DNA of 33,472 bases from Scytonema tolypothrichoides VB-61278 (GTDB lineage: Bacteria; Cyanobacteriota; Cyanobacteriia; Cyanobacteriales; Nostocaceae): NCBI RefSeq assembly GCF_000828085.3, contig NZ_JXCA02000023.1, positions 451,382 through 484,853 on the forward strand. The letters run 5' to 3'. Within the stretch, counting starts at the first letter, position 1; every line of letters begins with the position of its first letter. Shown here piece after piece: positions 29,335 through 33,472 of this stretch. The notes under the pieces were generated by a model. The model was not told where the DNA came from and searched no databases. It saw only the letters and a list, made by a program, of their open reading frames with translations. A program made the translations under genes and the position numbers.

Positions 29335-30267
29335 ATGCCACAAAAAGTATTAATCTTAACAGCAATTCCCCACGGCTTACGCTTAGATAAAGAAATTCGG
29401 GAAATTGAAGAAGCTATTAAACGGGCAGTAAAACGGGATTTGTTTGAAATTAAAATCAGAACTGCTGTACGTCCAATAGATATTCGTAGGGCGATAGCCG
29501 AAGAACGTCCCCAAATTGTCCATTTTTGTGGACATGGGATGGAGGATGGTAGTTTGGTGTTAGAAGACGATGGCGAAAACCATAAACCCCTATCACCAAC
29601 GGGATTAGCAGCATTATTTAAGCTACACGCTAATTATATTAAGTGTGTATTACTCAATGCTTGTTATTCCGAAAAATCCGCCCAAGCTATTAGCCAACAC
29701 ATTAATTATACTATTGGCATGAATCAGCCGATTGGTGACAAAGCTGCTATTGTATTTGCTATTGGCTTTTATGATGGACTAGGGTACGAAAATCCAGATA
29801 ATCAAGATGTTATTGAAAGAGCTTTTGAGGAAGGCTTGGTTGCTATTCAAATGGAAGATGTTTCACAAGGACAAATACCAGTTTTAGTTAAAAATAACAC
29901 ATTAGACAAATCTTCATCACCAATTAATTCACAAATCAATCCTCCAGTTCAAATCAAACAAGAACTCAACGATTCCGACATAGAAACCTTGCGAGAACTT
30001 TTACAATTAAGCGGACGCGCTGGATCAGAAAGACGCAGAGCATTATGTATAGAAATTGGCATCAACCCAGGAGAACTAAGTTCTATATGGGTACTTCCCG
30101 AAAACGACTTTGCTATAGAACTTATTGATTTCTTACAAAAAAGAAAATTACAAACAACAATTTATAAACTTTGTAAAAAACTAGAATCTGACTTCAAAGG
30201 AGGAGGATATAGTTCTAAGTTAGAAGCAATTATAACTAAACTCAATTGTCATACCGATTCTCTATGA
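29335..30267 (+). CDS. CHAT protease with C-terminal EAD-like domain
   Basis: 310 residues. Residues 1-185 form a compact CHAT (caspase-HetF-associated with TPRs) protease domain. The catalytic dyad is visible as H67 in VHFCGHG and C110 in LLNACYSE, with the usual strand pattern between. A linker (about 186-208) leads to a helical domain at 210-304 (LNDSDIETLR..., ALCIEIGINPGELS, GGGYSSKLEAI) that recurs at the N-terminus of the following gene. Its pattern resembles the death-fold-like effector-associated domains (EADs) of bacterial conflict systems, which bind identical partners. AGGAG at 29322-29326, 8 nt before the ATG, is a strong ribosome site. The protein is probably cytoplasmic. It may be a caspase-like protease activated by clustering; its substrate is unknown. 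Confidence 0.9.
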   Translation: MPQKVLILTAIPHGLRLDKEIREIEEAIKRAVKRDLFEIKIRTAVRPIDIRRAIAEERPQIVHFCGHGMEDGSLVLEDDGENHKPLSPTGLAALFKLHANYIKCVLLNACYSEKSAQAISQHINYTIGMNQPIGDKAAIVFAIGFYDGLGYENPDNQDVIERAFEEGLVAIQMEDVSQGQIPVLVKNNTLDKSSSPINSQINPPVQIKQELNDSDIETLRELLQLSGRAGSERRRALCIEIGINPGELSSIWVLPENDFAIELIDFLQKRKLQTTIYKLCKKLESDFKGGGYSSKLEAIITKLNCHTDSL

Positions 30268-30337
30268 AAATGAACTTTCTAGTAAATTTCACTTCCATAC
30301 AATACATGCAACTCCGTAGGGCACGGCAATGCTTATT

Positions 30338-30480
30338 GGTGTCAACTTAAGCCAAAACTCTTCTAAAATCTCGTTTCCAGATTCTACCTGGAAATGCAGT
30401 TTCAGCGGCTCTGCCGCAAGTACGGCGGGCATCGCCTTGCAATGGTATTCCCAGCCAGAGACTGGGAACAAGGCATACAG
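30338..30480. repeat. Repeat cluster inserted between CHAT and CHASE2 genes
   Basis: It starts with GGTGTCAACTTAAG (30338-30351), matching the ends of the MITE-like element at 19562-19866. It also contains a 7-bp hairpin (TTTCCAG at 30374-30380 and CTGGAAA at 30388-30394) and GCGGC-TCT-GCCGC (30405-30417). These appear to have been inserted into the 254-bp gap between the two genes and do not interrupt either one. Confidence 0.6.
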
Positions 30481-30521
30481 CAGAAAATAAGACTTTTCAA
30501 ACACCCTCTTAAAAAAATCAT

Positions 30522-32228
30522 ATGTCTTTAGAAGACCTGAATGATTCAGATATAGAAACTCTCCGAAAATTTTTACAATTAAGCGGACGCACTGCACCCG
30601 ATAGACGAAGAGCATTATGCATAGAAATTGGAATCAACCCAGGAGAACTGAGTGCTATCTGGTTGCTTCCCCCAAACGACTTTGCAGTAGAACTGATTTA
30701 CTTATTACAAACAAGAAGATTAGAAAACTCTGTTTCTAAACTTTGTGAAGAACTCAAGTGTGCTTTTAGAGGAGGAGGATATGCACCTCAATTAGATGCG
30801 ATCGCCTATAAACTCAACCCTCATTACAACTCAGAACTAAACTCAGAACCAGATTACTCAACTTCAACAACCCAGCCTCCAACACAATATTCAAATCAAT
30901 TCACTCAACCGCCGCCAAAAACTGAGGTAACTAAAGCTACATTACCAGGGCGAAGAAAGGGAATTCACCTTTCCTTACTCACACGTTCTAACCTCAAAAC
31001 AGTGTTCACAGCGAGTCTTACAATCACCGTTGCATTGGTAGGACTGCGCTTTTTTGGTGTATTTGAATGGTTGGAATTGAAAACTTTTGACCACCTCATC
31101 TTACTCCGACCTGATGAAGGTATCGATAAACGCCTACTGATAGTCAAAATTACAGATGATGATATCTTAGCACAAGATACAAGAAAAGAGAAAGGACAAG
31201 GCTCATTGCGAGATCCATCTCTTAACCGTTTGTTGCAAATACTAGAGCAGCATAAACCGAGACTTATTGGAATAGACTTGTACCGTCCCTTTTTTGCTGA
31301 CTCCAGTGTACCAGGTTTATTAGAGCGACTAGGAAAAAATAACATTATTGCCGTCTGCAAAGTACCCATAATCGACGAGCAAGGAAATCCACAAAAAGAA
31401 GTAGATCCACCAAAAGAAGTGTCTGCAGATAATATTAGTTTTAGTGATTTTGTCTCAGACACAGATGATACCGTGCGTCGTCATCTTATGGTTCAAGATT
31501 GGGTACCAGGAGCTAAGTGTCGCACAGAAGAATCTTTTAGCTTCATGTTGGCACGTCGTTATTTAGAACAGGAGTTGAAAGAAAATACTAACTATCAAAA
31601 CCCTCTCACATCTGGAAATAACCTGCAACTGGGTGGCGTTGTCTTCCCTCAACTGCAACCATTCACTGGAGGTTATCAAGACGTAGACGCTTCTGGCTTC
31701 CAAGTCTTGTTAAATTATCGCGCCACGAGTTCTGGCAAAGTTGCCAAAGAGTTAACACTGGAAGACATATTAAATAATAACTTTCAAGATGAAGATGTGC
31801 GCGACAAGATTATCTTAATTGGCAGTTACGCCGAGCAACAAGGACCTCCTGACCGTTGGTCTACACCTTATGGTACGCTCACCGGTGTCATGGTACACGC
31901 GCACATGATTAGTCAAGTTCTCAGTACTGCACTTGACAAACGACCACTATTGTCTGTTTGGTCACAAGGTGGAGAAATTCTCTGGATTTGGAGTTGGTCT
32001 TTGATAGGTGGTGTTTTGGCTTGCTATTGGCGTTCATTCAAGCCCTTAGCAATAGCCGTAGGTTGTGGATTTTTAGTATTATACATTACCTGTTGGGTAA
32101 GTTTCGCAGTTGCCAGTGTTTGGATACCACTCATCCCACCTGCACTAGGTATGGTTGGTACGAGTTCTGTAGTTATATATATTATTTCTTTTTTTCCGCG
32201 ATCGCCCAAACAAAACTCGTATCAATAA
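30522..32228 (+). CDS. EAD-like domain fused to CHASE2 membrane sensor
   Basis: 568 residues. Residues 6-99 are the EAD-like helical domain, about 63 of 94 identical and gap-free with 211-304 of the preceding CHAT protein. A proline/threonine-rich linker (105-140) follows, then one membrane segment (about 158-180), a CHASE2 sensor domain (about 183-455, with KTFDHLILLRPDEG, LIGIDLYRPFF and GSYAEQQGPPDRW), and three closely packed membrane segments (about 475-560). Only about 15 residues remain after them. Thus the N-terminal domain is cytoplasmic, the sensor periplasmic, and there is no kinase, cyclase or other usual CHASE2 output. The only visible output is the shared domain. It probably captures the CHAT protease on stimulation. 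The start ATG 30522 follows a repeat cluster and has no clear ribosome site. Confidence 0.9.
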   Translation: MSLEDLNDSDIETLRKFLQLSGRTAPDRRRALCIEIGINPGELSAIWLLPPNDFAVELIYLLQTRRLENSVSKLCEELKCAFRGGGYAPQLDAIAYKLNPHYNSELNSEPDYSTSTTQPPTQYSNQFTQPPPKTEVTKATLPGRRKGIHLSLLTRSNLKTVFTASLTITVALVGLRFFGVFEWLELKTFDHLILLRPDEGIDKRLLIVKITDDDILAQDTRKEKGQGSLRDPSLNRLLQILEQHKPRLIGIDLYRPFFADSSVPGLLERLGKNNIIAVCKVPIIDEQGNPQKEVDPPKEVSADNISFSDFVSDTDDTVRRHLMVQDWVPGAKCRTEESFSFMLARRYLEQELKENTNYQNPLTSGNNLQLGGVVFPQLQPFTGGYQDVDASGFQVLLNYRATSSGKVAKELTLEDILNNNFQDEDVRDKIILIGSYAEQQGPPDRWSTPYGTLTGVMVHAHMISQVLSTALDKRPLLSVWSQGGEILWIWSWSLIGGVLACYWRSFKPLAIAVGCGFLVLYITCWVSFAVASVWIPLIPPALGMVGTSSVVIYIISFFPRSPKQNSYQ

Positions 32229-32260: not shown

Positions 32261-33070
32261 ATGAACCAATATATATCAACAACTCAAAAAGTAACTCTCG
32301 CTTGTATTCTGGGCTTAGTGTTAACTCATTCACTAAACCTACCGTCTGCCCAAGCACAACAATCACAACGCAGCCCGAATTTAACTGAAAAAATAAAACG
32401 TTTTTTCTTTGGCACTCGCCCAGGAGGAGTCGTTAAGGGTGTTCAGCGAGGAGGAGCTGTACGAGGGAACTGTCCTAATTTAGATCAACAAACTATAGCT
32501 TTGATACCCTCAACCGAAAAAGGAATTGCTTTTGTTGAACAAACAATCAGTGAACGTCCTAGCTTTTGGTTTTATGTTCCTAACTTACCTGCTTCTCGCG
32601 TAGATGCAGAATTCGTTCTTCTCGATAGCCAAGACAACGAAGTTTATTCGGCAATTTTACCGCTTAAGCAGCTATCAGGAATTATTAACCTTCAACTGCC
32701 AAAAACAGTACCCGCTTTGAAAGAAGGTAAAGAATACCATTGGGTTTTTTATGCTATCTGCAATCCTCAGAATCGTGCTGCTGATGTAATCGTCAACGGG
32801 TGGTTAAAGCGCATTCTTGTGAATTCAGCCTTAAGCACTCAGTTGAAAACATCATCACCAAAAGAGCGTGTCTCCGTCTATACTGACGCCAAATTGTGGT
32901 ATGAAACACTGACTGCACTGGCTGAACTTCAGCGTAGCAATCCACAGGATACTGAAGTAAAGACTGATTGGGCTAACGTGTTGCAATTAGCGGGTTTACC
33001 TAAAGGTGCGCCACAGACTTGGACAACTTATTCCCTTCCTAACCGCACTGAAAACAGCAGCAGAAATTAG
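32261..33070 (+). CDS. DUF928 secreted protein
   Basis: 269 residues. The signal peptide is 1-33, ending SAQAQQ. The mature part matches cyanobacterial DUF928 (PF06051): GNCPNLDQQTIALIP, FWFYVPNLPASRVDAEF, LPKTVPALKEGKEYHWVF and a closing GW.KR motif. Function is unknown, but in filamentous cyanobacteria DUF928 genes are often neighbours of CHASE2 and CHAT-TPR genes, as here. It lies 32 bp after the CHASE2 gene; the spacer has a tandem ATAAATATAAACA repeat. It is probably part of one operon with its neighbours. The protein could be an extracytoplasmic partner of the sensor, which is inference. Confidence 0.9.
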   Translation: MNQYISTTQKVTLACILGLVLTHSLNLPSAQAQQSQRSPNLTEKIKRFFFGTRPGGVVKGVQRGGAVRGNCPNLDQQTIALIPSTEKGIAFVEQTISERPSFWFYVPNLPASRVDAEFVLLDSQDNEVYSAILPLKQLSGIINLQLPKTVPALKEGKEYHWVFYAICNPQNRAADVIVNGWLKRILVNSALSTQLKTSSPKERVSVYTDAKLWYETLTALAELQRSNPQDTEVKTDWANVLQLAGLPKGAPQTWTTYSLPNRTENSSRN

Positions 33071-33087: not shown

Positions 33088-33472
33088 ATGCAGTTGAAAA
33101 GCATTAGCCTTGCAACATTGATAGCACTGCTCGCCAGTAGCACAGCACCATTCATCTCTACAGGAGTGCTACCTGTGTCAATGCGGGTATTAGCTCAAAG
33201 CACAAACTCCCTCAAAGAAGAAGCAGATAAATTGATAGAGCAAGGTAACCAACTGTCTAAGACTAGCCAGTTTCAAGCAGCGTTGCGTTCTTACCAGCAA
33301 GCATTGAAGATTTATCAAACCATCAAAGATAAACAAGGTGAGGGGAATTCTCTGGGCAATCTGGGACTTGCTTACGACTCACTCGGTGACTACAAACAGG
33401 CGATACAGTACCAGCAGCAGAGTTTGTCAATCGCCAGAGCTATCGGTGATAAACAAGGTGAGGGGCAGTCTC
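33088..33472 (+). CDS. Secreted TPR protein, 5' end only
   Basis: Partial: 128 codons, continuing past the right edge. An N-terminal signal-like segment (LATLIALLASSTAPF, cleavage probably at LAQS, about 36-38) is followed by tetratricopeptide repeats of the (Q)A..YQQALKIYQTIKDKQGEG type, with LGNLGLAYDSLGDYKQAIQY for the next one. Such proteins in cyanobacteria usually end in a C-terminal CHAT domain, which cannot be seen here. It starts 17 bp after the DUF928 stop, so it is probably cotranscribed. If it does end in CHAT, the locus would contain both a cytoplasmic and an exported CHAT protein. Confidence 0.88.
   Translation, partial: MQLKSISLATLIALLASSTAPFISTGVLPVSMRVLAQSTNSLKEEADKLIEQGNQLSKTSQFQAALRSYQQALKIYQTIKDKQGEGNSLGNLGLAYDSLGDYKQAIQYQQQSLSIARAIGDKQGEGQS

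Follow-up and report, generated by a model that had tools for sequence, protein, structure and literature searches.

Neighbouring CHAT and CHASE2 genes of Scytonema tolypothrichoides as a predicted split receptor-protease coupled by matching EAD8-like domains

Two adjacent genes near the end of the window, the 33,472-nucleotide stretch of Scytonema tolypothrichoides VB-61278 DNA analysed here (contig NZ_JXCA02000023.1, positions 451,382 to 484,853), encode a predicted caspase-like CHAT protease and a predicted CHASE2 membrane receptor that have one domain in common, for which we use the name EADL. Our comparisons make it probable that the two genes specify a split receptor-protease, coupled by its matching EAD8-like domains and activated or aimed by proximity. 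Comparison lends good support to the predicted recruitment of the protease to the receptor through EAD contact, and we take it as the best reading because the shared domain is EAD-like, its pairing and the catalytic dyad of the protease are conserved, and the same CHASE2 family is otherwise mostly fused to CHAT and, in one case, to TIR.

The domain common to the CHAT and CHASE2 proteins

An earlier note on this DNA had aligned residues 211-304 of the CHAT protein with residues 6-99 of the CHASE2 protein without gaps, and its count of 63 identities in 94 positions was reproduced exactly. BLASTP gives 65 of 101 identities (E = 4e-43). The two EADL copies share 77% identity as DNA; their differences number 21, 12, and 31 at the first, second, and third codon positions, and the ratio of nonsynonymous to synonymous substitution rates (dN/dS) between them is about 0.30, a pattern which argues that they are an old duplicate under selection and not an assembly artefact. 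Chance similarity and an assembly artefact were both considered and rejected, given this E value and the presence of the same pair in independent genomes.

The earlier note's view that the domain is EAD-like was upheld by profile-profile comparison, by which EADL is a divergent relative of EAD8 (PF19961), the nearest branch tested. An alignment of 33 EADL sequences matched the EAD8 profile with a probability of 95.9 (P = 5.9e-9) over 88 columns; 48 sequences gave P = 1.9e-9 over 86 columns, and the 12 closest sequences alone gave a weaker match (80.1%, P = 1.4e-5). The reversed alignment scored 0.2%, and all 200 column shuffles fell below the true score (best 21.8, versus 48.8). Membership in EAD1 was rejected, the same comparison giving 2.6-3.6%. 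The EAD8 profile used 23 of the 24 places chosen from 27 Pfam places in related genomes and the EAD1 profile 13 of 16 chosen from 19; those left out were partial, contained stops, or lay in a locus cut short. These were the two families compared by profile, the other EAD families being compared through Pfam only.

Pfam gave no EAD match at E ≤ 1 in either whole window protein. The 27-bit Pfam cut-off for PF19961 was not reached by any of the 33 EADL members, 6 of which match it weakly (best E = 0.023) amid scattered further weak Pfam matches. Structure prediction, which the earlier note had proposed, modelled EADL as six helices (AlphaFold2; predicted local distance difference test [pLDDT] score 89, predicted template modelling [pTM] score 0.82), and a profile search of PDB sequences with EADL found no convincing match (best E = 0.1).

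Distribution and pairing of EADL

We searched for EADL in the species genomes, the order (388 genomes), a sample of the phylum (386 genomes), and the genus (7 genomes), with duplicate-contig records removed. Scoring took in every candidate in the genus and up to 12 per genome in the order and the phylum sample, so that lone copies could be missed in these last two. EADL was found in 13 of the 388 genomes of the order, in 6 of the 7 of the genus, and in 4 of the 386 of the phylum sample, all four in the same family. Only two copies were found in the source genome, both in the window pair (47 of 47 candidates scored).

Conservation of the gene pair in other genomes had been named in the earlier note as a check, and the pair recurs. 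We count 25 EADL loci in 20 genomes, and in 23 of them an effector gene with a C-terminal EADL comes immediately before a same-strand partner gene whose EADL is N-terminal; six of these loci, including the window, are CHAT/CHASE2 pairs. The gaps range from -20 to +539 bp in the 17 of the 23 pairs that were measured, all 17 of which place the domain at these termini. In the genus, 18 of 19 EADL copies sit in adjacent same-strand pairs. One of the two unpaired loci (L177) is a truncated remnant; the other (L218) is taken up below.

Both sides of the pair vary. CHAT is the effector in 23 of the 25 loci (21 by Pfam; a broken gene and the remnant by BLAST), TIR in one (L053/L170), and a trypsin-like protease in one (L216, whose disrupted gene was read piecewise); the TIR protein of L170 shares 86% identity with a CHAT protein across EADL. 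The 23 partners comprise CHASE2 (6), GUN4 (4), NACHT (1), and a decayed gene (1), along with eight proteins in which a membrane helix is followed by a part lacking any Pfam match above the cut-off and three large proteins with no membrane helix after EADL, the two of these that were scanned having no Pfam match. A hydrophobic helix follows EADL in 17 of the 22 partners measured, and all but one of the 17 have a net positive flank on the EADL side, which predicts a cytoplasmic position for EADL.

The EADL tree, in which long branches were flagged, switches three times between effector and partner labels, and at least two of the switches are forced by well-supported branches. Mean EADL identity within a locus is 47.1%, a level that none of 20,000 permutations reached; for permuted pairs it is 39.4%. 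Across the orthologue pairs compared, EADL has dN/dS values of 0.09-0.19 and CHAT of 0.07-0.11.

The protease and the receptor

The CHAT protein is a predicted caspase-like protease with an intact dyad, and proteolysis is its predicted activity. The histidine and cysteine that the earlier note had picked out, H67 and C110, are present, invariant in all 24 rows of the CHAT alignment, and aligned with those of the CHAT protein of PDB entry 8tl0, the nearest solved chain by sequence. The corresponding histidine and cysteine likewise never vary among the 19 EADL-bearing CHAT proteins that were aligned (a few rows are common to the two alignments). In the full-length model (pLDDT 78.5, pTM 0.60), alpha and beta elements alternate as in a caspase-like domain. 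H67 follows strand 61-65 and C110 strand 104-108, and the helices of EADL, six in number, lie behind the linker at residues 192-209. PADLOC matched the protein to its generic chat and SAVED_CHAT models only and the CHASE2 protein to none, and neither protein had a match in NCBIfam.

No enzyme domain was found in the CHASE2 protein by Pfam, in agreement with the earlier description of a receptor without enzymatic output. Pfam and hydropathy place the CHASE2 domain between membrane helices. Hydropathy predicts that EADL and a linker of about 60 residues make up the sole sizeable cytoplasmic part, a topology that the earlier note had also proposed.

Split and single-chain receptor-effectors

The whole CHASE2 protein was searched against the 388 genomes (E ≤ 1e-60, at most 3 candidates scored per genome), and relatives were found in 203 of them. 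Among the matches listed, only those of the source genome and of G361 begin at residue 1, all others beginning at residue 106 or later, and most of the other relatives are found in open frames some 780-820 residues long. We retrieved 20 relatives from the list, for the most part the best, and the N-terminal part proved to be CHAT in 19; the remaining one (L197) has three TIR domains before CHASE2. With three fusions from the source genome added, CHAT was present in 22 of 22, the histidine (FAGHS) and cysteine (FNSCDG) being invariant. At least four CHAT-CHASE2 fusions are present in the source genome, DUF928 accompanying three of them, and DUF928 stands beside CHASE2 in 18 of the 20 retrieved relatives; one of the other two (L200) ends at a contig edge. 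EADL was not found in the single-chain CHAT-CHASE2 proteins. Their CHAT domain belongs to another branch, with no BLAST match to the window CHAT at E = 1e-4 in L179-L182.

In the CHASE2 tree, which was rooted at the midpoint and has some long branches, the six EADL forms make up one clade (100/100) whose sister is TIR-CHASE2 (84/93), and rooting on cyclase- and kinase-linked CHASE2 rows leaves this clade inside the effector-fused family. The CHASE2 gene of L017, which has no fused effector, also falls in the effector-fused part of the tree. On the simplest reading of these comparisons, EADL took the place of an N-terminal effector, and a CHAT protease of another branch would now be supplied in trans through the matching EADL. 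The EADL pair thus seems to have replaced the covalent link between receptor and enzyme, because the same CHASE2 family is otherwise mostly found as a single chain with its effector and with DUF928 beside it.

GUN4 offers a parallel: two loci (L013 and L043) encode single-chain CHAT-GUN4 proteins, and four encode CHAT-EADL together with EADL-GUN4. The CHAT branch that bears EADL often has EAD1 in its stead, and in several loci an EAD1-CHAT protein stands beside a protein that combines EAD1 with caspase, TPR, or NACHT parts.

A model for recruitment and its alternatives

In the model that we favour, the CHASE2 protein would lie in the inner membrane, with its sensor predicted to be periplasmic and its N-terminal EAD8-like domain cytoplasmic, and the cytoplasmic CHAT protein would present its matching C-terminal domain behind a flexible linker. 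The two EADLs would bind each other and so bring the protease to the receptor. The receptor would be changed or clustered by a periplasmic signal, in which the DUF928 and TPR-CHAT proteins may have a part, and CHAT would be activated or aimed by proximity. An outcome in defence or regulated cell death is likely only by analogy and is a guess.

Several observations weigh against recruitment by a matching pair. Co-transcription of the window pair is not assured because of the 254-bp gap between the genes (30268-30521, both on the plus strand), which widens to 440 and 539 bp in two near relatives (Brasilonema). EADL is rare. Its own neighbour is the best-matching partner of only 2 of 17 effector copies, and the excess of within-locus identity can come from shared ancestry of the loci. 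Partner EADLs are also more acidic than effector EADLs (mean net charge -2.8 versus -0.4; lower in 13 of 17 pairs), so that the contact may be heterotypic or made with something else. L017 (5668-7901) has an EAD1-CHAT gene followed by a CHASE2 gene without any EAD, from which it follows that CHAT and CHASE2 genes can adjoin without a shared domain, and in L218 (1775-3998) a CHAT-EADL gene lacks an EADL partner, the next gene being TIR-EAD1.

Among the alternatives, the CHASE2 protein might be a brake, its EADL keeping CHAT inactive at the membrane until a signal releases it. We regard this as unlikely: the anatomy and the pairing evidence are identical for an inducer and a brake, which sequence does not distinguish, but the related fusions keep effector and sensor in one chain, where release from the receptor is not needed. 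Improbable too, and placed after the brake, is a third EAD8-bearing hub (a STAND protein, MoxR-vWA, or other) on which both EADLs dock, CHAT and CHASE2 being two clients that do not bind each other. Such an arrangement would be in keeping with the recruitment of several clients to a core component by EADs (Kaur 2020, PMC7159879; Kaur 2021, PMC8195603), and the source genome does hold two other EAD8 matches, one with a stop codon; however, the only two EADL copies found in that genome are those of the window, the genus genomes show 9 two-gene sets with no third EADL match beside them, and the single-chain CHAT-CHASE2 family needs no hub. That the two copies arose by chance duplication inside a gene cluster and make no functional contact is very improbable: tandem neighbours can share duplicated parts and the similarity within a locus is exceeded elsewhere in the set, but the pairing recurs across unrelated effectors and partners, two of the three label switches are forced by well-supported branches (with the caution due to long branches), and both copies are under purifying selection.

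Relation to described systems

The logic of the window pair is the published EAD principle (Kaur 2020, PMC7159879; Kaur 2021, PMC8195603), in which EAD8 is among the effector-recruiting EADs. Common to those conflict systems and the EADL pairs are a small helical terminal domain on neighbouring genes, one of them an effector, swappable effectors (CHAT, TIR, trypsin-like), and a multicellular host; the EADL locus L216 also has Trypco1, trypsin-like, and NACHT parts. The EADL pairs differ in that the partner is usually a membrane protein, with CHASE2 as a probable periplasmic sensor, and not an NTPase core, in that EADL lies outside the Pfam EAD8 model, and in that most EADL loci are simple two-gene sets. 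EAD8 has also been described as joining a trypsin-like protease to STAND proteins (PMC10907252).

CHASE2 is mentioned 0 times in the accessible text of PMC7159879 and once in that of PMC8195603, as the C-terminal part of EACC2-caspase proteins. These too are predicted conflict systems that tie a caspase-superfamily protease to CHASE2; they differ in being one chain, paired with TRADD-N, and an EAD8-like pair is not mentioned for them in that text. CHASE2-bearing membrane orthocaspases have been proposed in cyanobacteria (PMC7475262), a gene cluster with CHASE2 and DUF928 has been mentioned (PMC5587647), and HetF is a CHAT protein of heterocyst formation (PMC8406250). The single-chain cyanobacterial CHAT-CHASE2 proteins share the CHASE2 family, a CHAT protease, and the DUF928 neighbour with the window pair, and differ in the covalent joining of sensor and protease, in having no EADL that we found, and in their branch of CHAT. 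In bacterial CARD systems, the CARD protein LypA contacts the ATPase LypB, with binding shown by two-hybrid assay (PMC13236601, which also cites the CARD-gasdermin system of Wein 2025). The likeness drawn here is one of contact logic, a CARD-bearing protein contacting a partner; that partner is an NLR-like ATPase and not a membrane receptor. An EAD pair between CHAT and CHASE2 was not found described in the open literature, subscription papers lying mostly outside the search.

In animals, a death receptor in the membrane, FADD, and caspase-8 are connected through homotypic helical domains. The earlier note, which was largely right in its interpretation, had likened the window pair to this chain of receptor, adaptor, and caspase. 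The receptor-to-effector recruitment in that comparison remains the best reading, the logic of receptor, helical domain, and caspase-like protease being alike by analogy; the adaptor does not carry over, as the window pair has no separate one and the contact would run directly from receptor to protease.

A wider proposal, possible but a little short of probable, is that in multicellular cyanobacteria interchangeable periplasmic sensors (CHASE2, and unnamed ones that are possibly lectin-like) plug through a homotypic EAD8-like domain into CHAT, TIR, or trypsin-like effectors, and that single-chain forms were converted into two-piece ones, giving a bacterial counterpart of the death receptor pathway from covalent ancestors. 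If so, the pair would offer a small, testable case of a membrane receptor that governs a caspase-like protease by a death-domain-like contact. It would also be a natural experiment, the same receptor family being either fused to its enzyme or coupled to it by a domain pair, and would allow the published EAD principle to be put to a direct test of homotypic recruitment. The periplasm would then be a route of signal entry; to our knowledge, most described EAD systems sense in the cytoplasm, although this is an impression and not a count.

Feature coordinates and adjoining genes

The features of the gene pair and of the genes that follow it are collected in Table 1.

Table 1. Positions of the gene pair, its predicted domains, and the downstream genes in the window
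Feature	Positions	Strand	Basis and remarks
CHAT-EADL protein, 310 residues	29335..30267	+	Open reading frame; Pfam CHAT, E 1.3e-7; AlphaFold2 mean pLDDT 78.5; predicted caspase-like protease with EAD8-like C-terminal domain
CHAT domain, residues 1-187 (boundary approximate)	29335..29895	+	Pfam 17-147; conservation to about residue 184, 24 rows
H67 (HFCGHG), predicted catalytic His	29533..29535	+	24/24 rows; aligned with HFIGHG of 8tl0
C110 (LNACYS), predicted catalytic Cys	29662..29664	+	24/24 rows; aligned with LNACCT of 8tl0
Linker, residues 192-209, low confidence, probably flexible	29908..29961	+	pLDDT <50
EADL copy 1, effector side, residues 208-306, six helices	29956..30252	+	Alignment and model
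EADL-CHASE2 protein, 568 residues, predicted membrane receptor without enzyme domain	30522..32228	+	Open reading frame; Pfam CHASE2, E 1.8e-54
EADL copy 2, receptor side, residues 3-101	30528..30824	+	Alignment
First predicted membrane helix, residues 161-181; N-terminal flank positive (EADL cytoplasmic)	31002..31064	+	Hydropathy
CHASE2 domain, residues 169-498, predicted periplasmic sensor	31026..32015	+	Pfam
C-terminal membrane helices, residues 509-527 and 540-558, short tail	32046..32195	+	Hydropathy
DUF928 protein, N terminus signal-peptide-like	32261..33070	+	Pfam, E 1.3e-56; frequent neighbour of the window's CHASE2 family
TPR protein start, cut by window end	33088..33471	+	TPR match; probably TPR-CHAT, as at the same place in relative L165 and in view of the CHAT match at 486198-487046 of the contig

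DUF928 adjoins CHASE2 in all 6 EADL-CHASE2 loci. The DUF928 and TPR-CHAT proteins both have signal-like N termini, and these, together with the gene neighbourhood, are the only grounds on which we name the two proteins as candidate partners of the periplasmic sensor. The genome search for CHAT found a match at 486198-487046 of the source contig, downstream of the window, among 57 CHAT matches in the source genome, at least four of which lie in single-chain CHAT-CHASE2 proteins. The CHAT and CHASE2 genes of two other CHASE2 loci are 36-43 bp apart, and judged by this spacing something seems inserted between the genes of the window and of its two near relatives.

Other EADL loci

L218 suggests two adaptor types side by side. 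By its topology, the EADL-helix-GUN4 partner in L172, L173, and L213 would have its tetrapyrrole-binding domain on the far side of the membrane from the cytoplasm, an odd place for GUN4. For the segments that follow the membrane helix in L052-L054, no PDB match fell below E = 0.2, and the partner in L219 (2978-3652) has a membrane helix and a match to CVNH, a cyanovirin-like lectin, at 24.1 bits, just under the cut-off of 24.5. Three loci (L174, L175, and L176) encode a larger CHAT-EADL protein and an EADL partner of about 635 residues that lacks a membrane helix after EADL, along with a large third protein (about 1500 residues); in L174 neither the partner nor the large protein had a Pfam match. 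EADL was not found in phage records. One plasmid record has it, the 38.9-kb, predicted mobilizable NZ_CP050444.1 of Tolypothrix sp. PCC 7910, which carries CHAT-EADL and EADL-GUN4 (L167), and from this plasmid location it follows that such pairs may move.

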